Assembly (NCBI RefSeq): GCF_000497445.1
Contig: NZ_CM002285.1
Span: 5,937,281 to 5,949,405 of the forward strand
Direction of reading: 5' to 3'
DNA from: Streptomyces roseochromogenus subsp. oscitans DS 12.976
Lineage (GTDB): Bacteria > Actinomycetota > Actinomycetes > Streptomycetales > Streptomycetaceae
Length of the DNA stretch: 12,125 nt
Shown here: positions 115-12,125 of the stretch, piece by piece
Position numbering within the stretch: position 1 is the stretch's first letter
Layout: the number at the start of each line of letters is the position of its first letter
The notes under the pieces: generated by a model
The model's input: only the letters and a program-made list of their open reading frames with translations
Told to the model about the DNA's origin: nothing
The model's database searches: none
Position numbers and translations under genes: made by a program

Positions 115-254
115 CGAAGCTCCTTCTCGGTGCCCTTCCGCGGACGCGGCGGCAGGTTGGCAGCCATCGTGCCATGGGGTGGTCACCGGGGGACCGGCCG
201 CGGTGGGCGCTGGATGCCTTCAATTGTCCGCCGGATCCGGGGCAGACTGACCGC
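115..254. promoter_or_regulatory. divergent intergenic region upstream of mtnA
   Basis: These 140 bp separate the two divergent genes and must hold both promoters. No convincing -35/-10 pair stands out. The least G/C-rich stretch is TTCAATTGTC near 218-227, which could include the mtnA -10. The Shine-Dalgarno sequence of the minus-strand gene is at 120-125. Confidence 0.3.
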
Positions 255-1397
255 ATGGCTGATCAGCAGGCGCGAACCGACCGGGACAAGCGGTCGACCG
301 AGATACCCACGATCCGATGGGAGGAACCACCTGAAGGCCCTGTGCTGGTCCTTCTCGATCAGACGCGGCTCCCGGCCGAGGAGGTCGAGTTGGTGTGCAC
401 CGACGCGCCGGCGCTGGTGGAGGCGATCCGTTCGCTCGCCGTGCGCGGGGCGCCGGTGCTCGGGATCGCCGGGGCGTACGGCGTCGCGCTCGCCGCCGTA
501 CGCGGCTTCGACGTGGCCGATGCGGCACGTGCGCTCGAGAGCGCCCGGCCCACCGCGGTGAACCTGTCCGTCGGTGTGCGCCGGGCCGAGGCCGCACACC
601 AGGCCGCGCTGGCGAAGACCGGCGATGCCACCGAGGCGGCCGCGGCGGCTCTGGCCGCGGCGCGGTCGCTGCACCGGCAGGACGCCGAGGCCAGCGCCCG
701 GATGGCGGCCCACGGTCTGGCGCTCCTGGACGAGTTGATGCCCGGTGGCGGGCACCGCATCCTCACCCACTGCAACACCGGTTCGCTGGTGTCGGGCGGT
801 GAGGGCACGGCCTTCGCGGTGGCCCTCGCCGCGCACCGTGAGGGGCGGCTGCGGAGGCTGTGGGTGGACGAAACGCGTCCGTTGCTGCAAGGTGCTCGCC
901 TGACGGCGTACGAAGCGGCCCGCAGTGGCATGGCGTACACCTTGCTCACCGACAACGCGGCCGGTTCCCTGTTCGCGGCGGGCGAGGTGGACGCGGTGCT
1001 CATCGGGGCGGACCGGATCGCGGCCGACGGCTCGGTGGCGAACAAGGTGGGGAGCTATCCGCTCGCGGTGCTGGCGCGATACCACCATGTGCCGTTCATC
1101 GTGGTGGCGCCGGTGACGACGGTCGATCCGGACACCCCCGACGGGGCGTCCATCGAGGTCGAGCAGCGACCCGGCTTTGAGGTGACCGAGGTCACAGCAC
1201 CCCAGGTGCCGGTGACGGGAGCAGGAGGCGGGATTCCGGTGGCACCCCTGGGGACCCAGGCGTACAACCCGGCGTTCGATGTGACGCCGCCCGAGCTGGT
1301 GACGGCCATCGTCACCGAGGAGGGAGCCGTTTCACCCGTGACGGCCGAGGCTCTTGCGGAGCTGTGTGCCAGGTCACGCCAGGTAACGATTAGCTAA
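255..1397 (+). CDS. mtnA: methylthioribose-1-phosphate isomerase MtnA
   Basis: This cytoplasmic enzyme of the methionine salvage pathway isomerises 5-methylthioribose-1-phosphate to 5-methylthioribulose-1-phosphate. The 380-aa product has the family signatures in order: RGAPVLGIAGAYG, HCNTGS with the likely catalytic Cys173, IGADRI with the likely catalytic Asp253 followed by ANKVGSYPLA, and NPAFDVTPPELV near the C-terminus. The 80-residue distance between the Cys and the Asp matches Cys160/Asp240 of the Bacillus subtilis enzyme. An in-frame ATG exists at 174, but the sequence before residue 1 (VFNCPP-like, not conserved in style) argues for the ATG at 255; the Shine-Dalgarno there is weak (GGGG about 12 nt upstream). 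The stop codon TAA (1395-1397) has its last two bases inside the attachment repeat of the mobile element, yet the reading frame is complete. Confidence 0.95.
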   Translation: MADQQARTDRDKRSTEIPTIRWEEPPEGPVLVLLDQTRLPAEEVELVCTDAPALVEAIRSLAVRGAPVLGIAGAYGVALAAVRGFDVADAARALESARPTAVNLSVGVRRAEAAHQAALAKTGDATEAAAAALAAARSLHRQDAEASARMAAHGLALLDELMPGGGHRILTHCNTGSLVSGGEGTAFAVALAAHREGRLRRLWVDETRPLLQGARLTAYEAARSGMAYTLLTDNAAGSLFAAGEVDAVLIGADRIAADGSVANKVGSYPLAVLARYHHVPFIVVAPVTTVDPDTPDGASIEVEQRPGFEVTEVTAPQVPVTGAGGGIPVAPLGTQAYNPAFDVTPPELVTAIVTEEGAVSPVTAEALAELCARSRQVTIS

Positions 1398-1401
1398 TGG
1401 G
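1373..1401 (+). promoter_or_regulatory. displaced native mtrA promoter inside the mtnA 3' end (candidate)
   Basis: In a chromosome without the element this stretch would lie directly upstream of mtrA. It holds two GTnAC half-sites, GTCAC at 1373-1377 and GTAAC at 1383-1387, and then an A/T-richer hexamer TTAGCT at -12 to -7 relative to the ATG at 1402. No Shine-Dalgarno is present, so a leaderless transcript starting at the ATG is plausible. Paired GTnAC half-sites resemble those described for streptomycete MtrA; the 10-bp period here is one base shorter than the form I recall. This is inference from pattern only. Confidence 0.4.
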
Positions 1402-1410
1402 ATGATGTCG
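1396..1410 (+). repeat. attL core (15-bp direct repeat)
   Basis: The 15-mer AATGGGATGATGTCG is identical to 9732-9746. Flanking bases differ at once on both sides (T and G here, G and T at the other copy), so the identity segment is exactly 15 bp. It begins at the second base of the mtnA TAA stop codon and includes the two ATG codons that start mtrA in the other copy. Confidence 0.88.
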
Positions 1411-1425
1411 GCTCGATCGACGGAA

Positions 1426-1467
1426 ACGGCCCCTCCACCTGCGACGATCCGCAGACAAAGGGGCCGT
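1426..1467. terminator. two-tier hairpin between attL and the end of int
   Basis: A perfect 9-bp outer stem pairs ACGGCCCCT (1426-1434) with AGGGGCCGT (1459-1467). Inside it CTGCG (1439-1443) pairs with CGCAG (1450-1454) around a 6-nt loop. It lies 17 bp beyond the int stop codon and 15 bp inside the att core, so it can terminate int transcripts from the right and mtnA or displaced-mtrA-promoter transcripts from the left. On the minus strand only a short TTT follows the stem, so efficiency as an intrinsic terminator is uncertain. Confidence 0.6.
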
Positions 1468-1489
1468 GACATCCAACGGCGACATCAAC
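1467..1489 (+). promoter_or_regulatory. putative integrase arm-type site, left arm
   Basis: This stretch reads TGACATCC-N6-GACATCAAC and recurs with the same spacing and orientation at 9617-9639 next to the other att core. It contains two GACATC units 13 bp apart (1468 and 1481). It overlaps the int stop codon by a few bases. Paired repeats on both sides of the core are the layout of arm-type Int binding sites in pSAM2 and lambda-class attP sites; binding itself is inferred. Confidence 0.55.
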
Positions 1490-2693
1490 GAGGTTTGGCA
1501 TCCGGTCGAGTGGCCTCTAGCTCCCGGATCCGACCCGGCTGCCGAAGCAGACGATCGAGCTGTCCCACGGCCTCAATCACATCGGGGTCCAGGGCTTCAG
1601 CGTAGATGTCCATCGTGGTGGCGATCCGGCTATGCCGCAGGATGGCCTTGACGATCCTCGGGTGCACCTTGAGGTGGACCAGGAGGGTGCCGCAGGACTT
1701 CCGCAGTCCCTTCGGGTTCATCTTGTCGAGGCCCTCGGCCGTGATTACGCGCTGCATGGTCAGGTACAGGTTCGAGGCCAGGAGCGGGTAACCGGTCCGC
1801 GAGATGAAGACGTGTCCGTCAGGGTCGTCGAACCACGGTCGGCCGTTGCTGATCGCACGCTCACGCAGCATGGCTGTACGCATCCGGGTCCAGCGCAGAG
1901 GCGCGATGCACTGAGCCGGGAGTGGCAGGGGAGCCTTCGAGGTCTCGGTCTTGGGATCGAGGTCGATCGTGCCCGCGCTGGAGCGCTGCCGTTGCTGCTC
2001 CACCCACAGGACCCGGTTGTCCAGGTCGATGTTCTCCCAGCGCAGGCCGCACACCTCAGCGCGCCGGAGGCCGAGCAAGCAGAGCAGCAGGAAGGCTGGG
2101 TAGTAGACCGTCAGCCGACGAGCAGCCGCGAGGAAGCGGAGCACAGTCACGGCGTCCCAGCTCTTGCCGCTGTCGGTGGTGGCCCGGACGTGCACGAGCT
2201 TGGCCACGTTTCGGGTAAGGCCGATGTCTTCAACCATCGCGGCCGTGAGCGCCGCCGAGAGGACCCGAAGGGCCTGCCGAGCAGTCTTGGCCCCCTTGGC
2301 CTCCGCGAGCCGCTGCATGACCCCGCGAAGCTCCGCCACGCCCAGCTTGACCATGACCTTGGAGCCCAGGAGCTGGCGTAGGTGGTTCCGCACGCCCTGT
2401 TCGTAGGTCTCGTAGCTCTTCGGCTTCAGATTCGGCTTGACGATCACCTCCAGCCAGTAGTCGAACCAGTCGCCCAAGCTCATGTCCCGAGTCGGAGTCG
2501 GGATGCCGCCGTTGGCGCGGTCGAGGAGATCACGGCGCTTCTGGTCGCACTCGTCGTATGTCTTGCCATAGGCGAACTTCCGCTTCACGGTGCCGTCTGG
2601 CTGCGGGACGTACACCGCTGCCTGGTAGCGGCCGTCAGCCCGCTTCGTGACCGTGCCCGAGCCGTTCGGATTCCGCTTTCGCTGACGTGCCAT
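1485..2693 (-). CDS. int: tyrosine recombinase / site-specific integrase
   Basis: The 402-aa protein catalyses integration at attB and, with Xis, excision of the element. It has an N-terminal arm-binding/SAM-like region (about 1-165) and a C-terminal phage-integrase catalytic domain (about 175-385). Visible catalytic residues are Arg210 in LLGLRRAEVCGLRW, a beta-hairpin Lys near 253, Arg331 in KGLRKSCGTLL, His354 in ILRHS and the nucleophile Tyr364 in TMDIYAEA. The usual His of the HxxR box is Lys328 here, an unusual replacement. The start ATG (2693-2691) overlaps the xis stop codon as TGATG, which indicates translational coupling. The gene lies next to attL and points at it, as is normal for AICE integrases. 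It seems less extremely G/C-biased than the spd genes. Confidence 0.95.
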   Translation of the reverse strand: MARQRKRNPNGSGTVTKRADGRYQAAVYVPQPDGTVKRKFAYGKTYDECDQKRRDLLDRANGGIPTPTRDMSLGDWFDYWLEVIVKPNLKPKSYETYEQGVRNHLRQLLGSKVMVKLGVAELRGVMQRLAEAKGAKTARQALRVLSAALTAAMVEDIGLTRNVAKLVHVRATTDSGKSWDAVTVLRFLAAARRLTVYYPAFLLLCLLGLRRAEVCGLRWENIDLDNRVLWVEQQRQRSSAGTIDLDPKTETSKAPLPLPAQCIAPLRWTRMRTAMLRERAISNGRPWFDDPDGHVFISRTGYPLLASNLYLTMQRVITAEGLDKMNPKGLRKSCGTLLVHLKVHPRIVKAILRHSRIATTMDIYAEALDPDVIEAVGQLDRLLRQPGRIRELEATRPDAKPR

Positions 2694-2881
2694 CAGGCCG
2701 CATCCTCCAGTCGCGCACGGATGTAGTCCTGAACAGCGCTATCCGGTATCCGTCGGCAACGCCCCTCCGTTATCGAGACGAGGCGCTTCTCTCGGATCAG
2801 GTCGTAGACCTTTGAGCGGCTGTACTTGAGCCGGGCCATGACCTCCGGCACGGTGAGCAACTCGGGGACGGCGGTGGTCAT
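2693..2881 (-). CDS. xis: excisionase (MerR/Xis-type helix-turn-helix)
   Basis: This 62-aa protein has the compact winged helix-turn-helix of the excisionase family: LLTVPEVMARLKYSRSKVYD (residues 8-27) gives the helix-turn-helix, followed by an RRIPDSAVQDYI wing/helix. It would bend DNA at the attachment site and direct the integrase to excision. The ATG at 2881-2879 is chosen because it overlaps the rep stop codon as ATGA, and the family usually begins 8-10 residues before the helix-turn-helix. Its stop overlaps the int ATG by one base. The much longer open frame extending upstream in this phase is only the shadow of rep in another frame. Confidence 0.9.
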   Translation of the reverse strand: MTTAVPELLTVPEVMARLKYSRSKVYDLIREKRLVSITEGRCRRIPDSAVQDYIRARLEDAA

Positions 2882-4362
2882 GCGACGGCTCCTTCCAGGT
2901 CGAGCAGGGCGGGTAGTTCTTCGCGTGCTGTCTCGCGGTTGTGCTGGATGTCGCGGCGGATGTTGGCGGCGAGCCAGGATTCGCCGGGGGCGTGGCCGTG
3001 TCCGGCGTAGGTCCAGTGGGCGAGGGTGAGCGTGGTGGCCTCCGTCTCTTCGTCGGGGTCGGGCAGGCCGAGGGCGGCGCGTTGCTGGGCGGCGCGGTAG
3101 TCGGCGCGGACCTGGCGGAGGGCGCCCAGGGTGGTCGAGTACTGGCGGGACTTGGTGGAGAAGTGGCCCCGGAAGCCGAGCATGTGAGCCCAGCGGGCCA
3201 GGTGGCGTTCGGGGTAGAGGGGCTGGAGGTCGATGCACGCTGTCATCAGGCGCCGGGCGTGTTCGGAGATCTCCAGGCGGGCGAGGTCTTCGCCGAGGCC
3301 GGTGCCGTGGCAGCGGGTGCACTGGCTGAGCGCTGATCCGGGGCGGTCGTACACGGTGGAACGGCCGGTGCCCCGGCATGTGCGGCAGTGAACCGGGGCG
3401 TCGGCGGCGCCGGAGATCTCGGCGGCTTTGGTGGCGTACTTGGCGACGTAGGAGGCGACGGCTTGTTCGGTGATCTCGGAGCCTTCGCCGAAGGACTGGA
3501 TCGGGCGCACGTCGAGCTGGGTGCCCCAGGTGAGCGTGCGGGCGGGCTGGTCTCCGGCCGGGTCGATATTGACGGCGACGCGGGTGGCTGCGGCGTGGAT
3601 GGCGTCGGTGAGCAGGTCGAGGGTGGCCCAGGCCGGGGGCGGGCTGTCGGGTCCTTTGCGGCCGTCGAAGCGGATCACGGCATGGAAGTGGACGGCTCCG
3701 CGTTTCTGGTACTCGGCGACCTTGCCGAAGGAGACGCGGGACTGTGCGTGGGCTTCCTTCTGGGTGAGGCCAGCGCGGCGGGCGATCTCGCGGCGCAGGT
3801 AGATCGTGAAGTAACGCCATAGCTCGGGGGCGTGGTTGTTCCACAGCACCGCCCCCGTGTAGTCGTACGACTCGGGATCGAGGGGGGTGCCGAGTTCGGG
3901 TGCGTCTTCGCTGTGGCGGGTGCCGCAGCGGCAGGGCCGGTTGCCGGGCCGGTTGTGGACCGGGCCGAACGAGGGGGCGGTGAGGGTGGCGAAGACGCGG
4001 GGGTGGTCCCGGATCGTTTCGGGGGTGCCCTTGGCAGGGTCGCCGACGAGGCCTGCGCGGATGAGGTGGTAGGTGTCTCCGGCGTAGGTCCAGGCGCAGG
4101 AGGGGCAGCGGGAGGCGCGGCGGTTGCCGCAGGCGACACGGAGCCGGGCGCCGGGCTCGCCGTCCGTTGAGTAGGCATGCAGAGCCTGTCCCGTGGAGGC
4201 GTCGCGGGTGACGGTGGAGCCCATGAGGTGGATCGGGTCGGAGCAGCCGCCGGTGCGGCGGATCTGTTCCTGGAGGCGGTCGAAGCCGGTGGACCCGGCC
4301 AGCCTCAGCAGATCGTTGAGGGTGGCCGGGTCCAGGCCCGCCATGGTGGCGGCGTCGGTCAC
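2878..4362 (-). CDS. repSA: RepSA-like rolling-circle replication initiator
   Basis: The 494-aa protein resembles RepSA of pSAM2, which nicks the double-strand origin to start rolling-circle replication of the excised circle. Motifs run in the usual order: FATLTAPSFGP (124-134), the HUH metal site GAVHFHAVIRFDG with His225 and His227, and VASYVAKYATK with candidate nucleophiles Tyr305 and Tyr309. Cysteine-rich modules occur near the N-terminus (Cys78, Cys86, Cys89, then Cys144/146), and a DnaJ-type pair CRTCRGTG/CTRCHGTG sits at 326-354. The start is GTG (4362-4360), overlapping the stop of the preceding gene as GTGA, with AAGGGGGG as Shine-Dalgarno. Family length is typically about 450-550 aa, so it appears complete. 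Confidence 0.92.
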   Translation of the reverse strand: MTDAATMAGLDPATLNDLLRLAGSTGFDRLQEQIRRTGGCSDPIHLMGSTVTRDASTGQALHAYSTDGEPGARLRVACGNRRASRCPSCAWTYAGDTYHLIRAGLVGDPAKGTPETIRDHPRVFATLTAPSFGPVHNRPGNRPCRCGTRHSEDAPELGTPLDPESYDYTGAVLWNNHAPELWRYFTIYLRREIARRAGLTQKEAHAQSRVSFGKVAEYQKRGAVHFHAVIRFDGRKGPDSPPPAWATLDLLTDAIHAAATRVAVNIDPAGDQPARTLTWGTQLDVRPIQSFGEGSEITEQAVASYVAKYATKAAEISGAADAPVHCRTCRGTGRSTVYDRPGSALSQCTRCHGTGLGEDLARLEISEHARRLMTACIDLQPLYPERHLARWAHMLGFRGHFSTKSRQYSTTLGALRQVRADYRAAQQRAALGLPDPDEETEATTLTLAHWTYAGHGHAPGESWLAANIRRDIQHNRETAREELPALLDLEGAVA

Positions 4363-4556: not shown

Positions 4557-4561
4557 GGCAG

Positions 4562-4744: not shown

Positions 4745-4788
4745 GATGGGGCTTCCCTTTCGGGTCCGTTGGATCAGGAAGAGGTGGA

Positions 4789-4835
4789 GCCGTCCGGGGC
4801 GGCGGATCTTTGGCGAGAGAGCCGCCCCGGAGGGC
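4789..4835 (-). terminator. strong hairpin between transfer genes and rep block
   Basis: A perfect 11-bp stem TCCGGGGCGGC (4793-4803) / GCCGCCCCGGA (4821-4831) is extended by three more pairs after one mismatch (4789-4791 with 4833-4835); the loop is 17 nt. It starts one base after the stop codon of the 61-aa gene. There is no T tract on the minus strand. It may act as a terminator, an attenuator or an RNA-stability element that sets rep-xis-int expression apart from the transfer genes. Confidence 0.6.
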
Positions 4836-4836
4836 G

Positions 4837-5022
4837 TTACTGGATCTGGCCGTCGCGCGTACGACCGGCGTTGAAGATGCGCTTGTCCTCGCGCGTGGCG
4901 GTGCCGTTCTCCAGCCGCTCGCGGATCTCGGCCATGAGCTTGTTGGCCTCGCGCTTGGCCTGCCGATACTCGCGTTCCTGCTTGTCGTAGTCGATCGGGG
5001 GACGCTTGCTGAAGATGCCCAT
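4837..5022 (-). CDS. 61-aa charged helical protein, unknown function
   Basis: I do not recognise a family with a known role. The protein opens MGIFSKRPPIDYDKQEREYR and residues 12-40 are dense in Lys, Arg, Glu and Gln with an amphipathic, coiled-coil-like pattern; the C-terminus is TREDKRIFNAGRTRDGQIQ. No cysteines and no membrane segment are present. The ATG at 5022-5020 begins one base after the TGA stop of the SpdD-like gene, and AAAGG lies 8 nt upstream, so translation is likely coupled. Position beside SpdD suggests a role in intramycelial spread or a partner of the Spd membrane proteins, but this is context only. Confidence 0.75.
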   Translation of the reverse strand: MGIFSKRPPIDYDKQEREYRQAKREANKLMAEIRERLENGTATREDKRIFNAGRTRDGQIQ

Positions 5023-5023
5023 G

Positions 5024-5335
5024 TCAGTGACCTTTCTGCTGGTTGAGGAGGGAGCGGAGGACGACGGCGACCACGGCAACGGACATGCCGGTGATGGCGA
5101 CCGCCAGGAGCAGGGAGACCAGGACCGCGCCGACGACGAGGACCACGGCACCGCCACCGGCGGCCAGGGCGAGCGCGCTGCCGGGGGTGAGCTGGACGGT
5201 GGGCCGGTTCGAGACCGGGGCCACGGGGGCGACCGGGGCCGGGGCCGCCTGAGCGGGGGCCGGGGTGGCGGTCTGCGGCTGGATGACGGTCGGGGGTGGT
5301 GCGGTATCCGGGGGCGGGTACTTCGGGGTGAACAC
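5024..5335 (-). CDS. spdD: SpdD-like membrane protein (plasmid spread)
   Basis: The 103-aa protein resembles SpdD-type proteins that affect intramycelial spread (pock size) of Streptomyces plasmids and AICEs. Residues 1-50 are a Pro/Ala-rich, probably disordered segment; residues 52-95 are almost wholly hydrophobic (ALALAAGGGAVVLVVGAVLV and onward) and can form two transmembrane helices; the tail is short and basic. The chosen start is GTG at 5335-5333, because AGGAG lies 8 nt upstream and the protein then begins FTPKYPPP; an open frame extends further upstream but would overlap the preceding gene and has no better signal. It is followed after one base by the 61-aa gene. Confidence 0.82.
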   Translation of the reverse strand: MFTPKYPPPDTAPPPTVIQPQTATPAPAQAAPAPVAPVAPVSNRPTVQLTPGSALALAAGGGAVVLVVGAVLVSLLLAVAITGMSVAVVAVVLRSLLNQQKGH

Positions 5336-5354
5336 GAGCGGATCTCCTCTCGGA

Positions 5355-5540
5355 TCAGACGGTGCCGCGGTGGGTGCGTGCGGCGAGTTCGGCAGCCGAG
5401 CGGTCACCGTGGTCGGTGGAGAAGCCGCACTTCGGGGCGGTGCAGGCGGCGGCGTGCCGGATCTGACCACGGCCGTTGTTGTACGAGCCGACCTGAACGG
5501 GCCCGATGCTGATCACGTCGTAGAAGCGGTTCGGGCGCAC
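5355..5540 (-). CDS. mobile element transfer protein (61 aa)
   Basis: This small basic protein matches a type that is commonly annotated 'mobile element transfer protein' in streptomycete AICEs. Recognisable parts are SIGPVQVGSYNNGRG (11-25), HAAACTAPKCGF with Cys33 and Cys38 (29-40), and the C-terminal SAAELAARTHR. The start codon is GTG at 5540-5538, decided by a perfect Shine-Dalgarno AAGGAGGT (plus-strand 5547-5554) six bases upstream; the longer frame running upstream is a shadow of the DUF2637 gene. It lies between the two Spd-type membrane genes. The biochemical role is not known to me. Confidence 0.85.
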   Translation of the reverse strand: MRPNRFYDVISIGPVQVGSYNNGRGQIRHAAACTAPKCGFSTDHGDRSAAELAARTHRGTV

Positions 5541-5546
5541 GGTTGA

Positions 5547-5554
5547 ACCTCCTT
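5547..5554 (-). promoter_or_regulatory. consensus Shine-Dalgarno that fixes a GTG start
   Basis: AAGGAGGT on the minus strand, six bases before GTG (5540-5538). It sets the start of the 61-aa transfer protein and excludes the long upstream extension of that frame. Confidence 0.85.
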
Positions 5555-5559
5555 GAATG

Positions 5560-6192
5560 TCAGGCGAGTTGGGCGGCGATGGCCCCGGCGAGGTCGTCAG
5601 GGACACCGAGCCGGGCGCGCAGGGTGGCGGTGTCGATGTCCATGCCGGTGCGGGTGCGGTGGTCGGCGGCGACCTTGCGGGCGTGGTCGACCAGCGCGGG
5701 AGGCACGAGCGGGGCCGTCTCCGGCTGAGCCTCAGCGGTCTCCGGGGTGCTGATCTGCTCCGGCTCCGGGTCGGGTACGGGGGCCGCGGCTGCGGGCGCC
5801 GGCGGAACCGGCACCCGGTCGTCGGCCGGGCTGGGTGAGGGCGAGTGGGCAAGCAGGGTGCCGCCCAGGAAGGCGAGTGCGGGCCATCCGGCGATACCGA
5901 GCCGGAGCAGCGCGGGCGGGTTCGCCAGATCGAGGAATCCGGCGGTGGCCACGTTCGCGCCGAGCGAGGCAACCAGGGCGACGAGGAACCAGCACCAGGC
6001 CAGCCGGGACCGCTGCACCCGCAACCGGCGCCAGGCGGCGACCAGGAGCAGGTCAACCGAGACGGGGTAGGCCCAGGCCTTCCAGCCGGACTGTCCGGCC
6101 GCAGCGGCAAGGTCGTGCAGGTGGGCGAAGGACAGCGCTCCAGCGATCACGGCCTGGATCAGGACGGCATCCGGGCGGATCGAGCGGACCAT
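5560..6192 (-). CDS. DUF2637 membrane protein, SpdB-like
   Basis: The 210-aa protein has four predicted transmembrane helices in its first 117 residues (about 10-32, 38-55, 64-87 and 95-116), the layout of DUF2637 proteins found in AICEs and often linked to Spd function. A Pro/Ala/Glu-rich linker (118-165) leads to a small helical C-terminal domain, ALVDHARKVAADHRTRTGMD and LRARLGVPDDLAGAIAAQL, which looks like a cytoplasmic helix-turn-helix-like module. The ATG at 6192-6190 is chosen over a TTG 18 bases earlier because a perfect AAGGAGGT (6200-6207) precedes it by 7 nt and would overlap the earlier start. It probably works at the septal membrane with TraSA and the other Spd proteins to spread the element within the mycelium. 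Confidence 0.88.
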   Translation of the reverse strand: MVRSIRPDAVLIQAVIAGALSFAHLHDLAAAAGQSGWKAWAYPVSVDLLLVAAWRRLRVQRSRLAWCWFLVALVASLGANVATAGFLDLANPPALLRLGIAGWPALAFLGGTLLAHSPSPSPADDRVPVPPAPAAAAPVPDPEPEQISTPETAEAQPETAPLVPPALVDHARKVAADHRTRTGMDIDTATLRARLGVPDDLAGAIAAQLA

Positions 6193-6199
6193 GGTCTTC

Positions 6200-6207
6200 A
6201 CCTCCTT
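6200..6207 (-). promoter_or_regulatory. consensus Shine-Dalgarno for the DUF2637 gene
   Basis: AAGGAGGT on the minus strand, 7 nt before the ATG at 6192-6190. It decides this start over the in-frame TTG at 6210. Confidence 0.85.
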
Positions 6208-6265
6208 CAAAGAGTTGGGCCAGGCCAGGCGGTCTGTGGTCGGCCGCCCGGTCCCGGCAGCGGGG

Positions 6266-6433
6266 CTAGTCGGCGGGGGCTTCGCCGGAGCCGAAGCAGT
6301 TCAGGCAGAAGCCCGACTGTTCGCCGACCGCGCGATGCTTGCGGCCGACCCGGACCGTGCGAGAGACCTCTCCGGAGCCCTTGCAGACCGGGCACTGAGT
6401 CACCTTGGGCTTTGCGGTCTTGCGCGGAGCCAT
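6266..6433 (-). CDS. 55-aa zinc-ribbon protein
   Basis: This very small basic protein starts MAPRKTAKPKVTQCPVCKGS and has two DnaJ-type pairs, CPVCKGSG (Cys14, Cys17) and CLNCFGSG (Cys43, Cys46), which likely form one zinc site. The ATG at 6433-6431 has a strong Shine-Dalgarno GAGGAG 6 nt upstream. It lies between the Tra translocase and the DUF2637 gene in the same orientation. The cysteine spacing is the same as in the 60-aa protein at 4562-4744. The basic N-terminus and zinc ribbon would suit nucleic acid or protein binding, but no function can be assigned. Confidence 0.8.
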   Translation of the reverse strand: MAPRKTAKPKVTQCPVCKGSGEVSRTVRVGRKHRAVGEQSGFCLNCFGSGEAPAD

Positions 6434-6515
6434 GACGATCTCCTCTCGGTTTTCGGCATGGGGCGGGTAGGGATCTGGCGCGATGCGGTCACGCCGACCG
6501 GGAGTGCAGGGGGTG

Positions 6516-7850
6516 TTACTCGGTGACCGGGAGCGGCTTGACCAGCGGCACCGGCGCCGGGGCGGGGCGGGCGGTCGGCCGGAAGGGGGCCAGGAACGGC
6601 AGGTCCGGGGTGAGGTCGGCGAACTGGCGGCACACGGCCACCACGTCCTCAGAGGAGGACTCCGGGGTGCGGATGCGGGACCAGCCGCCGGAGGTGTCAC
6701 CGGCCACTGCCACACCGGGGCGGTCCGGTGCGATCGTGGTCACGGCCATCACGGCATCCGGAGCGATGTCACCCAAGCCCATCTCGGCCGTCTGCTTGTC
6801 GTTGACCCGGTGCACCACACGCCCGGTGAGCTGAGCCCGCAGCGCGGTCGCGCCCCTGCCCAGGTCGGAGCCGAAGCGCTGCCCGCACACCTCCAGGAAG
6901 ATGCCGACCGCGCGGGCCATCTGACCCAGCCTGACCATCTGCATGACCGAGCGGTCCCGACGCTCCTCCTCCTTCTTCGAGGTCACCAGGAACAGCTCAG
7001 CGACCTCATCCACCAGGACGACCAGGGGCACCGGCCGCGCATCGTCCGGGAGCTCCCACAGATCAGACGCCCCGTGCTTGGCAAGCAGATCGAAACGGTC
7101 TTCCATCTCGGCCACGAGGACATCCAGCAGTCGGGCAGCGTCGTCCGGGGTGATGACCAAGGCGGACAGACGAGGCGCGTAGCGGGTCTGCTCGACACCG
7201 CGCTTGCAGTCGATACCGACCAGGCCGACCGGCAGCCGGGCAAGCCCCTTGATCAGGTTGCGCTGATACATGGACTTGCCGGACTGATTCGCCCCGAGCG
7301 TCAGCGCGTGCGGCACCTTGCGGTAGTCCCGCTCGAACACCGACCCGTCTTCCCGCAGCGCCACCGGCACCACCAGGTCACGGGACTGCGCCGAGCGAGG
7401 CAGCCGGACCCGCCTGAGCACGTCGTAGCCGGTCATCCGCAGCTCGATGCAACCCGGCTTGGTCTCGGCGACGGTCACGGACCGCACACCCCAGGCATGG
7501 CGCAGCCGCTCCGAGGACGCGGCCACATCCGCCGGTTCCAGTCCGGCTGGAAGCCGTAGGGAAACCCGCAGGCCGGTCGACGTACCCCGCACCCGGCGGA
7601 CCTTCGGCGGCACCGGACGGACCTCGCGGCGGGCAACGTTGCGGGTCATGAAGGCCCGCAGGCTGGACGGCTGTACCGTCAGCCCGCACACTTCCATCGT
7701 GGATCGGTACGTCCAGGTGAACCGGCCCCAGGTGGCCGGGAAACCGATCAGCGACCAGTACACGCGCGGGGCGCGGACCTTCGCGTAACCGAGCCCGCCA
7801 GCACCGGCAGCAACGCTGCCCAGCTCAAGCCACGGCGTGACGTCGGCCAT
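6516..7850 (-). CDS. traSA: TraSA/TraB-type FtsK/SpoIIIE DNA translocase
   Basis: The 444-aa protein is the conjugation motor. In Streptomyces elements a single hexameric FtsK/SpoIIIE-like ATPase moves double-stranded DNA between mycelia, acting at the membrane. Visible motifs are the Walker A loop GANQSGKS (186-193), the Walker B strand PLVVLVDE (275-282, Asp281/Glu282) and a later conserved block RVNDKQTAEMGLGD (348-361). A weakly hydrophobic stretch at 9-40 may be the membrane anchor. The ATG at 7850-7848 lies 2 bases after the stop of the SCO3933-like gene, which indicates co-transcription. Length is in the range of short pSAM2-type Tra proteins. No sign of disruption. Confidence 0.93.
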   Translation of the reverse strand: MADVTPWLELGSVAAGAGGLGYAKVRAPRVYWSLIGFPATWGRFTWTYRSTMEVCGLTVQPSSLRAFMTRNVARREVRPVPPKVRRVRGTSTGLRVSLRLPAGLEPADVAASSERLRHAWGVRSVTVAETKPGCIELRMTGYDVLRRVRLPRSAQSRDLVVPVALREDGSVFERDYRKVPHALTLGANQSGKSMYQRNLIKGLARLPVGLVGIDCKRGVEQTRYAPRLSALVITPDDAARLLDVLVAEMEDRFDLLAKHGASDLWELPDDARPVPLVVLVDEVAELFLVTSKKEEERRDRSVMQMVRLGQMARAVGIFLEVCGQRFGSDLGRGATALRAQLTGRVVHRVNDKQTAEMGLGDIAPDAVMAVTTIAPDRPGVAVAGDTSGGWSRIRTPESSSEDVVAVCRQFADLTPDLPFLAPFRPTARPAPAPVPLVKPLPVTE

Positions 7851-7852
7851 GA

Positions 7853-8185
7853 TCAGGCCCCCAGCGGAGTGACCGCCACCGCGCGGAACGAGATGCCGTG
7901 ACGCTTCTGGCCGTTGAACTCCTTCTCCCAGTCACGCGCCTTCAGCCCAGTCACGGCCACCGGCGTACCCGGCTGAAGCCCCTCGGGGAGACCGGTCTCC
8001 GGAACGGTCACCTGGTAGAGGTTCCCCTCTCCCTCGTCCGAGACCAGCAGGCCCACGGTCGACATGTCCGCGCCGGTCTCCCGGTCCACGGCCCGCTCAC
8101 CGGTCTTCTTGTTGACCATCTTGGGTTCCGGGGCGGTCGCCACGAATACCACAGCAGTCGAAAGATCGATCTTGAAAGACGGCAT
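7853..8185 (-). CDS. SCO3933-family protein (AICE regulatory/transfer accessory)
   Basis: The 110-aa protein is of the type that lies between korSA and traSA in the S. coelicolor SCO3932-SCO3937 element and is named SCO3933-family regulatory protein. It starts MPSFKIDLSTAVVFVATAPE and contains VPETGLPEGLQPGTPVAVTG and a C-terminal GISFRAVAVTPLGA; the pattern suggests a small beta-barrel (OB-like) fold, which is my inference. The ATG at 8185-8183 is preferred over a GTG six bases earlier because GAGGGA then sits 7 nt upstream rather than touching the start. It is the first gene of the long minus-strand operon and directly faces the KorSA-like operator array. Confidence 0.82.
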   Translation of the reverse strand: MPSFKIDLSTAVVFVATAPEPKMVNKKTGERAVDRETGADMSTVGLLVSDEGEGNLYQVTVPETGLPEGLQPGTPVAVTGLKARDWEKEFNGQKRHGISFRAVAVTPLGA

Positions 8186-8221
8186 GAGCACATCCCTCGT
8201 TCTGGGAGGCCGCCTGACGCA

Positions 8222-8234
8222 ACCTCTCTAGACA
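8222..8234 (-). promoter_or_regulatory. KorSA-like operator copy 1
   Basis: TGTCTAGAGAGGT on the minus strand, an exact inverted copy of 8251-8263. Its flank also matches copy 3 over 15 bp (minus-strand GGAGATGTCTAGAGA). Confidence 0.6.
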
Positions 8235-8239
8235 TCTCC

Positions 8240-8269
8240 AGGAAAGCACGTGTCTAGAGAGGTCGTCAA
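8240..8269 (-). promoter_or_regulatory. possible promoter of the minus-strand transfer operon
   Basis: Minus-strand TTGACG (8269-8264) is a good streptomycete -35. The hexamer 18 bases on, TTTCCT, is a poor -10, so the call is tentative. Operator copy 2 fills the spacer and copy 3 abuts the -35, which would let the regulator block this promoter. Confidence 0.35.
8251..8263 (+). promoter_or_regulatory. KorSA-like operator copy 2
   Basis: TGTCTAGAGAGGT; forms a perfect 13-bp inverted repeat with copy 1, 16 bp apart. The core GTCTAGAG fits the GTnTAnAC operator shape of HutC-type GntR regulators at all but the last base. Confidence 0.6.
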
Positions 8270-8270
8270 G

Positions 8271-8285
8271 GGAGATGTCTAGAGA
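8271..8285 (+). promoter_or_regulatory. KorSA-like operator copy 3
   Basis: GGAGATGTCTAGAGA; core TGTCTAGAGA at 8276-8285, 25 bp from the core of copy 2 in the same orientation, and inverted to copy 1. Confidence 0.6.
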
Positions 8286-8318
8286 CGTTGTTTCGCGAAG
8301 GATTGCGGCTACACGCAC

Positions 8319-8357
8319 TGAGCGGGTGCCCCACCCATGGCCTAGGCTGTCTAGAGA
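8319..8357 (+). promoter_or_regulatory. promoter of the KorSA-like gene with operator copy 4
   Basis: TGAGCG (8319-8324) and TAGGCT (8343-8348), 18 bp apart, form a possible promoter. TGTCTAGAGA (8348-8357) covers the expected transcription start and lies 18 bp before the ATG. A repressor at this site would regulate its own gene negatively. Confidence 0.45.
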
Positions 8358-8375
8358 AGAGAGGAGGGCTCCGGA

Positions 8376-9134
8376 ATGGCCAACACCGACGACGACCGTC
8401 GGCCGAAGTATCAGCGGATCGCGGACTCCCTACGTGAGGCGATCCAGTCGGGCGAGTACGGTCCCGGTGATCGGCTTCCGGGAGAGAACGACCTGATGGC
8501 CGAGCATGGCGTAGCCCGCATGACGGCTCGCCAGGCCCTGGGTGTGCTCAAGGACGAAGGGGTCGCCGAGTCCCGCAAGGGCGCAGGCGTGTTCGTGCGC
8601 GACTTCCGCCCCCTGAGGCGTCGAGGCATCCAACGGCTCTCGCAGGAGCAGTGGGGTAGCGGCCGGTCGATCTGGGCCGCCGACATCGAGGACCGCTCGT
8701 TGGTGGTGGACCAGGTGACGGTGTCGGAGGAGGCGCCGCTGGAGCGCGTCAAGTTGGTTCTGGAGCTGGCCGACGAGGACAGCGTGTGTGTGAGGCGCCG
8801 ACGGTTCGTCCTGGATGGGAAGCCCGTTCTGCTCGCGACGAGCTATCTGCCAACGTCGGTGGTCGCAGGCTCCGCAATCACCCAGGAGGACACGGGCCCC
8901 GGCGGCACCTACGCCAGGCTTGCCGAACTCGGATACAAGCCAGTGCACTTCCGCGAAGAGATCCGGTCACGCATGCCCTCGAAGGATGAGGCGGGACAGT
9001 TGAGCATCTCCGCAGGAACACCGGTCATTCTCATCTGCCGGACCGCGTTCGCGGACGAAGGACGCCCCGTAGAGATCAACGAGATGACGCTCGATGCCGC
9101 CTCGTACATCCTTGAGTACGACTTCGACGCGTAG
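8376..9134 (+). CDS. korSA: KorSA-like GntR/HutC-family repressor
   Basis: The 252-aa protein has an N-terminal GntR winged helix-turn-helix (about 10-78; signatures YQRIADSLREAIQSGEYGPG and HGVARMTARQALGVLKDEG) and a C-terminal UTRA ligand-binding domain (about 100-245, ending in the typical MTLDAASYILEYDFD). This is the HutC subfamily to which KorSA of pSAM2 belongs; KorSA represses pra and its own gene and so controls replication and transfer. The ATG at 8376 has GAGGAGGG 7 nt upstream. The gene is divergent from the transfer operon, and four copies of a TGTCTAGAGA motif lie in the shared gap, consistent with control of both directions. The UTRA domain implies a small-molecule signal, but the ligand cannot be read from sequence. 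Confidence 0.9.
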   Translation: MANTDDDRRPKYQRIADSLREAIQSGEYGPGDRLPGENDLMAEHGVARMTARQALGVLKDEGVAESRKGAGVFVRDFRPLRRRGIQRLSQEQWGSGRSIWAADIEDRSLVVDQVTVSEEAPLERVKLVLELADEDSVCVRRRRFVLDGKPVLLATSYLPTSVVAGSAITQEDTGPGGTYARLAELGYKPVHFREEIRSRMPSKDEAGQLSISAGTPVILICRTAFADEGRPVEINEMTLDAASYILEYDFDA

Positions 9135-9135
9135 C

Positions 9136-9145
9136 CCTGCGCAGG
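9136..9145. repeat. short palindrome after the regulator gene
   Basis: CCTGCGCAGG is a perfect 10-bp palindrome directly after the stop codon of the KorSA-like gene. It could contribute to termination but has no loop or T tract of its own. Confidence 0.3.
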
Positions 9146-9169
9146 CTGTTACAGGTTTCTCTACCTCAT

Positions 9170-9275
9170 CAAGCCCCGGCTGCGCTCCGCTCCGCCGGGC
9201 GCGCTCCCGGCTCCGCTGCGGGCGCCGCTCCTGCCTCCGGCCCGCTCCGCCCGCACTGCGCCGACGCGCGCCCAC
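9170..9275 (+). repeat. GC-rich CGCTCC-repeat tract with terminator-like hairpin
   Basis: This tract repeats CGCTCC and GGCTCC units at irregular spacing. CCCGGC (9175-9180) and GCCGGG (9194-9199) form a 6-bp stem with a 13-nt loop, and further short stems are possible downstream. It probably ends transcription of the regulator gene. Similar C/G-rich tracts after genes on Streptomyces plasmids are familiar to me, but I cannot identify this copy. It encodes no credible protein. Confidence 0.45.
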
Positions 9276-9418
9276 TGGTGGATAGGGCCGGTGGCCATGA
9301 GTCGATCACCGCAGAACGCGGCCAGGGTCAGAACAGTGCCTCCGGCGGGGGATCGGCCGACACCGGGATGGAGGGGGCGCCGCCGCCGACTGCGGGTCCG
9401 TCGTGGTGGATGCTGGGG
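9276..9418. other. non-coding stretch, nothing recognised
   Basis: Open frames cross this stretch on both strands, but none has a Shine-Dalgarno sequence with a matching start, conserved motifs or a plausible product. I see no RNA gene. It lies between the GC-rich tract and the large hairpin. Confidence 0.5.
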
Positions 9419-9568
9419 GCTCCCATCCCGCACACCATCGACCCAGGCAGAGCCGAGCAGACGCGGCCCCTGGCGTCCAGGTCGTTCGTACAGTGGCGCG
9501 CTCCACCTGGACGCCAGGAACCACGCCTGCTCCACAGAGTGTGGGTCGACGGCGTACGGGATGGGAGC
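9419..9568 (-). other. large imperfect hairpin (64-bp arms, 22-nt loop)
   Basis: Arms 9419-9482 and 9505-9568 pair without gaps at 50 of 64 positions. Perfect blocks include the 13 bp next to the loop (CTGGCGTCCAGGT / ACCTGGACGCCAG) and 12 bp at the base. Of the 14 imperfect positions, 8 are A-C oppositions on the plus strand, which become G.U or G.T wobbles on the minus strand; only one is the opposite type. On the minus strand 58 of 64 positions can therefore pair. Candidate roles are a single-strand origin for lagging-strand synthesis, a structured RNA, or a relic of a palindromic element. Confidence 0.6.
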
Positions 9569-9616
9569 TGGGGCGCGTGGTGGGTAAGGGTGTGGGGCTG
9601 GTGTCGGCGGACGAGC

Positions 9617-9639
9617 TGACATCCGTCACTGACATCAAC
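9617..9639 (+). promoter_or_regulatory. putative integrase arm-type site, right arm
   Basis: TGACATCC-N6-GACATCAAC, matching 1467-1489 in sequence, spacing and orientation; only the central six bases differ. It contains two GACATC units 13 bp apart. It lies 92 bp from the attR core. On the excised circle the two arm sites would flank the core. Confidence 0.55.
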
Positions 9640-9724
9640 ATCGGCAGACAGGGGCAGACAGTGACGGCCCGGTACGACTAAGGTCACCGGCCAGTGACCT
9701 CCCTCACCAGGGCACCTGTCACTG
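9625..9724. repeat. four GTCACTG repeats beside attR
   Basis: GTCACTG occurs at 9625-9631 and 9718-9724 on the plus strand and as CAGTGAC at 9659-9665 and 9692-9698. The first two form the inverted pair CCGTCACTG/CAGTGACGG. Start-to-start spacings are 34, 33 and 26 bp. Between them GGCAGACAG occurs twice in tandem (9643-9651, 9653-9661) with a 10-bp period. These look like protein-binding sites of the recombination complex or of a regulator. Confidence 0.45.
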
Positions 9725-9731
9725 TTATGAG
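9683..9731 (+). promoter_or_regulatory. element-supplied upstream region of mtrA (candidate promoter)
   Basis: This stretch now stands where the native mtrA promoter was. It has GTCACC-N5-GTGACC (9683-9699), which fits the paired GTnAC pattern I recall for MtrA sites, and TATGAG at 9726-9731, exactly -12 to -7 from the ATG at 9738. The -35 position holds only CTCACC. No Shine-Dalgarno is visible. The half-sites overlap the GTCACTG repeats, so they may instead belong to the recombination machinery. Confidence 0.35.
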
Positions 9732-9746
9732 AATGGGATGATGTCG
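9732..9746 (+). repeat. attR core (15-bp direct repeat)
   Basis: Identical to 1396-1410 (AATGGGATGATGTCG). It contains the first two ATG codons of mtrA and the following TCG codon, so integration restores the 5' end of the mtrA coding sequence. Confidence 0.88.
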
Positions 9747-10427
9747 TTTATGAAGGGACGAGTCCTTGTCGTCGACGACGACACCGCACTGGCCGAGATG
9801 CTCGGCATTGTGCTGCGTGGTGAAGGTTTTGAGCCGTCTTTCGTAGCCGACGGCGACAAGGCGCTGGCCGCTTTCAGGGAGACCAAGCCCGATCTGGTGC
9901 TGCTCGACCTGATGCTGCCCGGACGGGACGGCATCGAGGTGTGCCGGCTGATCCGGGCCGAGTCCGGGGTGCCGATCGTGATGCTCACGGCGAAGAGCGA
10001 CACCGTCGACGTGGTCGTGGGCCTGGAGTCGGGCGCCGACGACTACATCGTCAAGCCGTTCAAGCCGAAGGAGCTGGTCGCCCGGATCCGCGCGCGGCTG
10101 CGCAGGTCGGAGGAGCCGGCACCGGAGCAGCTGACCATCGGTGACCTGGTCATCGACGTGGCCGGGCACTCGGTGAAGCGGGACGGGCAGTCGATCGCAC
10201 TGACCCCGCTGGAGTTCGACCTGCTGGTCGCGCTGGCCCGCAAGCCGTGGCAGGTGTTCACGCGTGAGGTGCTGCTCGAGCAGGTGTGGGGCTACCGGCA
10301 CGCTGCCGACACGCGGCTCGTCAACGTGCATGTCCAGCGGCTGCGTTCCAAGGTCGAGAAGGACCCGGAGCGGCCGGAGATCGTGGTGACCGTCCGTGGT
10401 GTCGGTTACAAGGCCGGGCCGAGCTGA
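9738..10427 (+). CDS. mtrA: two-component response regulator MtrA
   Basis: This OmpR-family DNA-binding regulator, conserved across actinobacteria, controls development, cell-wall functions and antibiotic production in Streptomyces. The 229-aa product has a receiver domain (about 7-120: acidic pocket Asp13/Asp14, phosphoacceptor Asp57 in LVLLDLMLPG, Thr84, Lys106 in KPF) and a C-terminal winged helix (about 135-226, ending VVTVRGVGYKAGP). ATG codons occur at 9738, 9741 and 9750. None has a Shine-Dalgarno, so the exact start is uncertain and a leaderless transcript is possible; 9738 gives the form MMSFMKGRVLVV. The first codons lie inside the attR core, and all DNA upstream belongs to the mobile element. 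One base separates its stop from mtrB. Confidence 0.97.
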   Translation: MMSFMKGRVLVVDDDTALAEMLGIVLRGEGFEPSFVADGDKALAAFRETKPDLVLLDLMLPGRDGIEVCRLIRAESGVPIVMLTAKSDTVDVVVGLESGADDYIVKPFKPKELVARIRARLRRSEEPAPEQLTIGDLVIDVAGHSVKRDGQSIALTPLEFDLLVALARKPWQVFTREVLLEQVWGYRHAADTRLVNVHVQRLRSKVEKDPERPEIVVTVRGVGYKAGPS

Positions 10428-10428
10428 C

Positions 10429-12125
10429 ATGTCCGGGGACAGCGCCGCTTCGGCTCCCGGCCGGTCCGGGGCCCGTCCGGGGCGGGCTGTCGGCCGGACT
10501 ACGGGTGCGCGGTTCAGGAGTCTTTTTGAGGGCGGGCTGCTTGAGGGCGGGGTCCAGGGCAGCCCGGTCCTCAGGCTGTTCCTGCGCTGGGTGCGCCGTC
10601 CGCTGCTGCCGGTGATGCGGCTGTGGCGGCGCAACATCCAGCTGAGGGTCGTCGCCACGACGCTGGTGATGTCGCTGGGCGTCGTCCTGCTGCTGGGCTT
10701 CGTCGTGATCGGGCAGGTGCGCAACGGCCTGCTGGACGCGAAGGTGAGGGCCTCGCAGAGCCAGGCCACGGGCGGTTTCGCGGTGGCCAAGCAGAGGGCC
10801 GACGAGGCGGCCAGCGGCGCCGCCACCGGTGGGGCCGCCGGGACCGGTACCGCGGACGGCACGTCGACCACGGACGGCCGCCAGTCGCAGAACGTCATCC
10901 AGTGGATGAGCGACCTCGTGGAGTCGCTGTCCAGCGGCGGCGCGGGCGCCTTCGACGTCGTCACGCTGCCCGTCGGTGACGACAGCGGTGGCGGGCGCAG
11001 CCCGCGTGGCTCCGGGTACGTCAACCCGACCTCCAGCGTGCCCGCCGATCTGCGCGAGCGGGTCAACAGCGGCACGACGGCCGCGCAGAGCTACACCCGG
11101 ATCGTCTACTCCAACGGCAAGGACTCGCAGCCGGCGCTGGTCATCGGCAAGCAGGTCAACGACCCCAACGGGCGGCCGTACGAGCTGTACTACCTCTTCC
11201 CGCTCACGCAGGAGGAGAAGTCCCTCAGCCTGGTCAAGGGCACGCTGGCGACCGCCGGGCTGTTCGTCGTCGTCCTGCTCGGTGCCATCGCCTGGCTGGT
11301 GGTGCGCCAGGTCGTCACGCCGGTGCGGATGGCGGCCGGGATCGCGGAGCGGTTGTCCGCCGGGCGGCTGCAGGAGCGGATGAAGGTCACCGGCGAGGAC
11401 GACATCGCGCGCCTGGGCGAGGCCTTCAACAAGATGGCGCAGAACCTCCAGGTGAAGATCCAGCAGTTGGAGGACCTGTCGCGGATGCAGCGCCGGTTCG
11501 TCTCGGACGTCTCACACGAGCTGCGTACGCCCCTGACGACCGTCCGGATGGCCGCCGACGTCATCCATGAGGCGCGCGAGGACTTCGACCCGGTGACCGC
11601 GCGGTCCGCCGAGCTGCTCGCCGACCAGCTGGACCGGTTCGAGTCGCTGCTCGCGGACCTGCTGGAGATCAGCCGGTTCGACGCGGGCGCGGCAGCCCTG
11701 GAGGCAGAGCCGATAGACCTCAGGGAGGTCGTCCGGCGTGTGGTCAGCGGTGCCGAGCCGCTCGCGGAGCGCAAGGGCACGCGCATACGCGTGGTCGGCG
11801 ATCAGCAGCCCGTCGTCGCCGAGGCCGATGCCCGGCGCGTGGAGCGCGTACTGCGCAACCTCGTCGTCAACGCCGTCGAGCACGGCGAGGGCAAGGACGT
11901 CGTCGTCAAGCTCGCCGCGGCGGGCGGCGCGGTCGCCGTCGCGGTGCGCGACTACGGCGTGGGACTCAAGCCGGGCGAGGCGACGCGTGTGTTCAGCCGC
12001 TTCTGGCGGGCGGACCCGGCACGCGCGCGTACCACCGGCGGTACGGGCCTCGGGCTGTCGATCGCCCTGGAGGACGCGCGGCTGCACGGCGGCTGGCTGC
12101 AGGCCTGGGGTGAGCCGGGCGGTGG
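10429..12125 (+). CDS. mtrB: sensor histidine kinase MtrB (3' end outside the window)
   Basis: The membrane sensor kinase partner of MtrA; 565 codons are visible and the C-terminus is cut by the window edge. Order of parts: cytoplasmic basic N-terminus (1-70), transmembrane helix about 72-97, extracellular sensor region about 98-271 with an Ala/Gly/Thr-rich insert, second transmembrane helix about 272-294, HAMP linker, the dimerisation/phosphoacceptor box FVSDVSHELRTPL with His363, then the ATP-binding domain with N box LRNLVVNAVEHG, G1 box VRDYGVGL and G2 box GGTGLGLSIA. The ATG at 10429 lies one base after the mtrA stop and the pair is surely co-transcribed. In streptomycetes lpqB normally follows, beyond this window. 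Confidence 0.96.
   Translation, partial: MSGDSAASAPGRSGARPGRAVGRTTGARFRSLFEGGLLEGGVQGSPVLRLFLRWVRRPLLPVMRLWRRNIQLRVVATTLVMSLGVVLLLGFVVIGQVRNGLLDAKVRASQSQATGGFAVAKQRADEAASGAATGGAAGTGTADGTSTTDGRQSQNVIQWMSDLVESLSSGGAGAFDVVTLPVGDDSGGGRSPRGSGYVNPTSSVPADLRERVNSGTTAAQSYTRIVYSNGKDSQPALVIGKQVNDPNGRPYELYYLFPLTQEEKSLSLVKGTLATAGLFVVVLLGAIAWLVVRQVVTPVRMAAGIAERLSAGRLQERMKVTGEDDIARLGEAFNKMAQNLQVKIQQLEDLSRMQRRFVSDVSHELRTPLTTVRMAADVIHEAREDFDPVTARSAELLADQLDRFESLLADLLEISRFDAGAAALEAEPIDLREVVRRVVSGAEPLAERKGTRIRVVGDQQPVVAEADARRVERVLRNLVVNAVEHGEGKDVVVKLAAAGGAVAVAVRDYGVGLKPGEATRVFSRFWRADPARARTTGGTGLGLSIALEDARLHGGWLQAWGEPGG

Follow-up and report, generated by a model that had tools for sequence, protein, structure and literature searches.

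What drives a global regulator once a mobile element has inserted directly in front of its gene? MtrA is such a regulator, governing both development and the production of antibiotics in Streptomyces. We analysed a stretch of 12,125 bp, hereafter the window (G000:C1:5937281-5949405 of a 9.78-Mb genome), in which the gene order is mtnA, an element of 8.3 kb, mtrA and the start of a gene that we take, from its position beside mtrA, to be mtrB. A preliminary description of this DNA proposed that the element had replaced the promoter of mtrA, and that its insertion might act as a reversible switch of the regulator. We compared the window with other loci of the genus, and asked where the new upstream DNA comes from, what it would do at mtrA, and how it came to precede mtrA in other genomes.

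An integrated element at the 5' end of mtrA

The gene preceding the element (174..1397, plus strand) is mtnA-like, matches PF01008 and presumably encodes methylthioribose-1-phosphate isomerase. The element is bounded by two copies of a 15-bp core, AATGGGATGATGTCG, at 1396..1410 (attL) and at 9732..9746 (attR). The copies are spaced by 8336 bp and, at up to one mismatch, are the sole matches to the core in the 9.78-Mb genome. A relative (G326, locus L404) has the empty site: its sequence aligns to positions 7-1410 (93.4%) and 9732-12125 (95.8%) of the window, the two alignments overlap by exactly the 15-bp core, and positions 1411-9731 have no match in this empty-site region. The repeated core and the empty site confirm the earlier statement that all of the DNA directly 5' of the mtrA start is element DNA. 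The point of insertion is the 5' end of mtrA, which is intact from 9738 and complete downstream of attR (9738..10427, plus strand, a response regulator gene). The N-terminus of MtrA is not replaced, since its first codons belong to the shared core and are encoded unchanged at attR.

Most genes of the element are on the minus strand. They encode a tyrosine recombinase (int, 1485..2693, PF00589/PF14659), a Xis-like HTH protein (2697..2881, HTH_17), a RepSA-type replication initiator (2878..4362, PF20199, E=2.3e-147), a DUF2637 protein recognised by its domain match (5560..6210, presumably Spd-like) and a TraB-like FtsK/SpoIIIE protein (6516..7850, PF01580). A GntR/UTRA regulator, also recognised by domain match and presumably KorSA-like, is encoded on the plus strand (8376..9134). 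By this gene make-up (Int, Xis-like, RepSA, TraB-like, GntR) the 8.3-kb element is an AICE: Int and the Xis-like protein are encoded between direct-repeat att sites, together with the RepSA initiator and an FtsK/SpoIIIE translocase, from which transfer is predicted.

Both ends carry repeats that are putative arm sites of Int, i.e., TGACATCC...CGACATCAAC on the left (1467..1489) and TGACATCC...TGACATCAAC on the right (9617..9639); the latter are decayed or lost in most loci that lack an element. A hairpin lies between the attL core and the 3' end of int (1426..1467). It has a z of -3.8 and a consensus fold common to seven left ends, in which two of the 14 pairs have changes on both sides. This hairpin may be a terminator or an insulator, stopping the displaced mtrA promoter (described below) from reading into int. 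The displaced promoter, being leaderless, would read a 67-codon ORF (1402-1605) into the left end, and this ORF overlaps the 3' end of int on the opposite strand. Near the right end there is an imperfect inverted repeat (9419-9482 / 9505-9568), with arms of 64 nt that are 78% complementary and 22 nt apart, a possible replication or transfer origin.

The displaced promoter and its putative substitute

The original promoter of mtrA, hereafter type A, lies inside the last codons of mtnA (1372..1401, plus strand). The preliminary description had placed the native upstream region at attL, 8.3 kb from mtrA, and we confirmed its sites there: GTCAC at 1373-1377, GTAAC at 1383-1387 and TTAGCT at 1390-1395. 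The gene is now preceded by a block that runs from GGGCAGACAGT to the start codon (9652..9737, plus strand), hereafter type B, which cross-genome comparison and the attP of a circular relative identify as a putative portable mtrA promoter. It contains the pair GTCACC-GGCCA-GTGACC at 9683..9699 (-55 to -39), CTCACC at 9703..9708 (-35 to -30) and, read from the sequence, TATGAG at 9726..9731, exactly -12 to -7 from the ATG at 9738. The pair GTCACC-N5-GTGACC and the TATGAG are thus as they had been described. The pattern GTNACC-N5-GTNAC occurs once in the window, with 0.10 occurrences expected and at least one in 17 of 200 shuffles. A further candidate promoter upstream, CAGACA-N18-TAAGGT (9655..9684, plus strand), is a guess read from the sequence, and does not fit the P2 reported at -79 in S. 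venezuelae. A consensus promoter scan of 9560-9800 returned no sigma-70 site.

The pair fits the published consensus for MtrA in Streptomyces, GtnAcC-n5-GTnAcn (PMC13189361, in the part cited here). According to the parts of PMC5487470 used here, the main start of mtrA is at +1 of the start codon in both S. coelicolor and S. venezuelae (dRNA-seq), i.e., the transcript is leaderless, and a ChIP peak of MtrA lies at about -50 of mtrA in S. venezuelae. In the same species MtrA binds the site TCTCAAG at -34 by SPR, and activation of the operon has been suggested (PMC5487470, PMC13189361, same parts). CTCACC sits at roughly the place of this site in the window. Given a leaderless start at +1 and a peak near -50, the positions of the -10 element (-12 to -7) and of the boxes (-55 to -30) make sense, and the layout of the block is like that of the S. 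venezuelae promoter, as judged from the published positions. A scan of the genome contigs with the published S. venezuelae site was too loose, giving at least 119 stretches, with no Streptomyces among the 80 titles listed.

Sequence and published transcription start layout therefore uphold one half of the preliminary reading: the replacement of the upstream region of mtrA by a promoter-like block of the element's own end is supported. We infer that this block is an MtrA-responsive leaderless promoter replacing type A.

The block is carried by the element

Beyond what had been described, the block is portable. A circular record of S. formicae (NZ_CP071873.1) is 27,773 bp long and consists of some 2.7 units, each of about 10,384 bp, in tandem. 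Its proteins include an Int with 92% identity to that of the window, a replication initiator and an FtsK protein. Along its attP, the arm repeats are followed by the type B block, the core, the sequence of the left-end hairpin, an arm repeat and int. Hence, the free form carries the promoter block. Four plasmid records match mtrA, and this record does not belong to them. A circular form with attP is thereby known for the S. formicae relative, and excision is predicted for the copy in the window. We note that this "plasmid" (L406), with some 2.7 units of a 10.4-kb AICE, may be a replicating circle, a multimer or an assembly effect. In the plasmids collection one record has a similar block, and in the phages collection no similar block was found at E≤1e-3.

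We found Int, or a part of it, with at least 75% identity (E≤1e-60) in eight of the 392 genomes, and all eight have it at the mtrA site. These are G000 (the genome of the window), G127, in which the junction at the mtrA site is split over two contigs, G369, G176, G096 and G143, as well as G099 and G243, where Int is broken. A type B block flanks the element or its remnant on both sides in G369, G176 and G099, so insertion there exchanged one B block for another; over 82 bases the two flanking copies are 99% identical in G369 and 91.5% identical in G176.

Arm repeats with type B blocks were also seen away from mtrA. One instance is a second AICE-like region in G376 (L398 12400, G376:C1:4471398; L402 13857-13930), beside a tRNA-Gly gene and 1 Mb from mtrA, which encodes a distant Int (23%) and relatives of RepSA and TraB. 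The other two, in G040 (L395 9007) and G011 (L383 6765), have no mtrA nearby.

Two types of upstream sequence and their spread

At type A loci mtrA follows immediately on the end of mtnA (..GGTCACGCCAGGTAACGATTAGCTAATGGGATGATG), and attL of the window has this form. Type B loci have GGGCAGACAGT-N12-CGACTA-NN-GTCAC .. GTGA .. CTCACC .. GTTA(C/T)GAGAATGGGATGATG, as at attR. A pattern search allowing up to three mismatches found the first part of type B in 103 of the 392 genomes of the genus. At up to two mismatches type B is in 93 of the 392, by a hand count that omits 10 genomes with only three-mismatch rows; in one of the 93, G040, the block sits away from mtrA. The pattern for the start of mtrA matched 240 of the 392 genomes.

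We fetched 140 regions, picked from matches to the mtrA start, to type B and to mtrA, of which 138 contain mtrA. The Streptomyces among them comprise 52 type B loci, 43 type A loci and three others, namely two elements with a variant block (G096 and G143) and G173. Twenty further regions were picked because type B matched: in 17 of them the block is 96 or 97 bases upstream of the mtrA ATGAAG, and the remaining three have the block without mtrA. All 160 regions were thus chosen, not random. Type B precedes mtrA in 69 of the fetched loci, and a second result that goes beyond the preliminary description is that it does so in many Streptomyces without a recognisable element.

The sister genera g6, g7, g13, g16 and g17 have B-like blocks of their own (12 rows), several of which adjoin TGACATC-like repeats by eye. 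In other genera of the family, the loci L109-L111, L113, L115, L116, L118 and L122 have B-like blocks with GTGAC..TCACC and without GGGCAGACAG, and TGACATC-like repeats adjoin several of these. Perhaps a like process took place there with other element lineages.

These observations bear on the other half of the preliminary reading, by which insertion would re-wire the level of MtrA and so form a reversible switch of development and antibiotic production. Types A and B do differ in the number and spacing of MtrA-like sites, and in the window both cores are apparently intact, as are int and the xis-like gene. There is also a precedent, as the promoter supplied by a dusA element is weaker in expression than the native one (PMC8409611, in the part cited here). 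However, the strong conservation of the MtrA boxes (see below) argues for preserved control, B has been exchanged for B in G369 and G176, and type B occurs without an element in many lineages, which makes such a switch doubtful. Conservation of the boxes points to a substitute that fits the gene, and not to a disruption. We also think it unlikely that the block is a control handle, i.e., that MtrA bound at the B block (attP/attR) couples excision or transfer to development, that switching between A and B reversibly changes MtrA dosage, and that decay then leaves the host its standing promoter, so that insertions would repeatedly have rewritten the control of a master regulator across Streptomyces.

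Relics at loci without an element

Six of the 52 type B loci were set aside as elements, Int relics or islands (G369, G176, G127, G099, G243, G206), and the other 46 were tested for remains of an element. The spacing between mtnA and mtrA in these 46 loci, which were not scored as elements, ranges from 126 to 4083 bp. Measured from the mtnA stop to mtrA in 51 type B loci, distances are 126, 186, 341, 459, 943, 1605, 2775 and 4421 bp, with others up to 11,616 bp. Among the 46, G252 retains a 43-residue fragment of Int at 67%. Upstream of the block, G033 and G252 have intact arm repeats, CTGACATCC-N5-CTGACATCAAC; elsewhere these are altered. Similarity to the arm sites at their fixed position was significant, relative to shuffles, in 20 of the 46 loci at 0.05 and in 19 at 0.01; the same test was not significant in 26. 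Among the 38 loci with gaps shorter than 800 bp, left-end similarity was found in eight (p≤0.05), within 25 bases of the mtnA stop in seven of these, and not detected in 30. The strongest left-end relics are those of G382, G033, G388 and G172, and a decayed attL core could be seen by eye after mtnA in G033, G382 and G164. Recognisable ends of the element thus survive in a minority of the 46 loci.

For the type A sequence in the last part of mtnA, the mean match to the consensus is 0.90 in the 43 type A genomes, 0.54 in the 46 type B genomes and 0.41 in shuffles; judging from these values, it decays once displaced. By eye, the displaced piece of the window (1372..1401) equals the type A consensus, so the insertion in the window is probably recent. 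When the proteins of the window element were compared with the larger gaps, several gaps were without a match, including those of G206, G107, G013, G110 and G273. The ORFs in the gaps of G206, G107, G013 and G110 resemble, by eye, P450s, a glycosyl hydrolase and a transporter, and an acetyltransferase. The island of G206 (L131) spans 8.2 kb between mtnA and mtrA, has intact arm repeats and no match to the proteins of the window element. By eye, its ORFs resemble genes for two cytochrome P450s, an aldo-keto reductase and a regulator, and biosynthetic cargo is possible.

Type B without an element looks like what remains of elements, and the block seems often to outlive the element that carried it.

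Direction and number of changes

We built a FastTree phylogeny of mtrA-mtrB-lpqB DNA from 137 of the 140 regions (two without mtrA and a short one were omitted, and the genome of the window is not included). It requires at least 14 changes between A and B, which are changes rather than insertions and may include excisions and gene transfer; the count is equal when well-supported branches alone are used, and the shuffled mean is 45.8. For this count two states were assigned by hand, B for G096 and A for G173. The tree represents one linked locus, and came with warnings for long branches, for an uneven base composition and for an outgroup not confined to one side of a branch.

None of the 22 rows that split first in the tree has type B, and neither do G402, G399 and G413, which branch near the base of the remaining rows. 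In nine of these 25 rows mtnA abuts mtrA. The other 16 have no mtnA directly upstream and mostly have an A-like GGTCAC..TAATG; they were scored as A because type B is absent. Type A looks ancestral.

An alternative explanation is that type B is the old native promoter of mtrA in Streptomyces, that the element captured it, and that the type B genomes without an element were never invaded. The block must indeed derive at some time from an mtrA-like promoter, type B is common (the 93 of 392 genomes, one with its copy away from mtrA), and many type B loci have no detectable relic. Against this stand the 25 early rows without type B, nine with mtnA abutting mtrA and 16 with no mtnA directly upstream, as well as the decayed arm sites, left-end sequence and attL cores that lie beside type B in part of the element-free genomes. 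Moreover, type A has decayed at the loci with type B and is intact at those in which mtnA directly adjoins mtrA. We hold a native origin of type B to be distinctly improbable.

Conservation of the block

We aligned 41 of the 46 tested loci without gaps. Their identity to the window is 43% in the arm region and 82% in the block. The motifs GCAGACAGT, GTCAC, GTGA, CTCACC, GAGAATGGGATGATG and GAGAATGG are invariant or nearly so in these 41 loci. Some of this conservation follows in part from the choice of loci, as GCAGACAGT, CGACTA and GTCAC belong to the type B pattern and GGGATGATG to the mtrA-start pattern; GTGA, CTCACC and GTTA(C/T)GAGAAT are outside the selection patterns, and their conservation is independent of this choice. 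The ectopic copies that have arm sites and no mtrA (G376, G040 and G011) provide a natural control, small at n=3. They show, respectively, the changes GTCGC and CGGCTA, GTGCC, and CGACTG, and keep others of the motifs. The conserved block was also considered as coding sequence, and this was set aside since, by eye only, the upstream frames differ between loci.

Int and Xis sites would be expected in the P' arm of the element, and it is there, next to the TGACATC repeats, that the GTCAC/GTGAC repeats are found. However, a role of the latter as integrase and excisionase binding sites alone, with none at mtrA, has very little to recommend it, as they are nearly invariant in the 41 aligned loci while the TGACATC repeats decay, and as the three copies away from mtrA have some motifs mutated and others kept. 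Being kept at mtrA while the arms decay, and in part mutated elsewhere, the boxes are not merely recombination sites.

Discussion

We propose that an AICE carries a portable mtrA promoter, and that its recurrent insertion and decay made type B the standing promoter of many species. We give this explanation a probability of about 0.84; that most of the first-splitting rows have no adjoining mtnA weighs slightly against it and in favour of a native origin of type B.

The integrase of the AICE would recombine at the junction of mtnA and mtrA. Next to its core, attP would carry a complete substitute promoter for mtrA, i.e., type B (9652-9737) with its MtrA-box-like sites and a leaderless -10. On integration, type A, which lies within the last codons of mtnA, would end up at attL, 8.3 kb from mtrA, with type B taking its place before the gene, an arrangement that can be read directly from the window. 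Type B would then most likely drive mtrA with autoregulation by MtrA kept, in line with the conservation of the block and with the data from S. venezuelae and S. coelicolor. A substitute promoter that keeps autoregulation would make an insertion before an important regulator tolerable. Where int, xis and both cores are intact, as they are here, excision would be expected to restore type A. From the comparison of loci, decay of the element body would let the displaced promoter and the recombination sites rot, and type B would stay as the permanent promoter of mtrA. This domestication appears to have been repeated in Streptomyces, and probably also in sister genera.

Integration at the 5' end of a gene by elements that supply a new promoter is known already, as is the decay of AICEs. 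In the parts of the papers cited here, dusA elements (IMEVchUSA3; PMC8409611, PMC4482086) likewise integrate at the 5' end of their target and provide a new promoter at attR, and expression after integration was shown by a lacZ fusion (PMC8409611). They change the N-terminus and supply weaker signals, whereas the mtrA element leaves the protein unchanged and targets a global regulator. The block of the mtrA element further differs in having regulator boxes and in persisting in many species where the element is absent. SXT at prfC, as cited in PMC8409611, also equips its target gene with a new promoter at the 5' end but, unlike the mtrA element, replaces the N-terminus; relic promoters are unmentioned in the part of that account used here.

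AICEs such as pSAM2 likewise have an integrase, RepSA and an FtsK-type transfer protein (PMC3218068, PMC9513070, in the parts cited here), and the decay of integrated copies has been described (PMC9513070). According to the same parts, AICEs with tyrosine integrases are mostly in tRNA genes, with the exception of the pSLS integrase subfamily (PMC3218068), and 36 tRNA sites and 14 protein-gene sites have been counted (PMC9513070). The AICE at mtrA differs in its site from those in tRNA genes. The words "mtrA" and "promoter" are absent from the main texts of PMC3218068 and PMC9513070. Our literature search, which left out preprints, most subscription papers and supplements, found no AICE targeting mtrA and no mtrA promoter derived from an element. 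Thus, three things appear to be new: a family of AICEs that targets mtrA, an attP with a conserved and portable promoter block containing regulator boxes, and the repeated domestication of this block.

In S. coelicolor, sco3014 lies directly upstream of mtrA, as in type A, and Som et al. read it as inserted in this species (PMC5487470, in the part cited here). Our comparison suggests the reverse, that species with type B gained DNA between mtnA and mtrA, and by extension S. venezuelae may have done so too. This may explain why the DNA preceding mtrA has been reported to differ between S. coelicolor and S. venezuelae.

Bringing a fitted replacement promoter would be a way for an element to target the start of an important gene. 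Since the promoter cannot be lost as the element decays, the process would ratchet. Complete, decaying and fully domesticated stages are found side by side, making promoter capture by mobile elements directly testable. If much of the genus has a domesticated mtrA promoter, findings on the control of mtrA would not be transferable between species of Streptomyces without regard to their promoter type.
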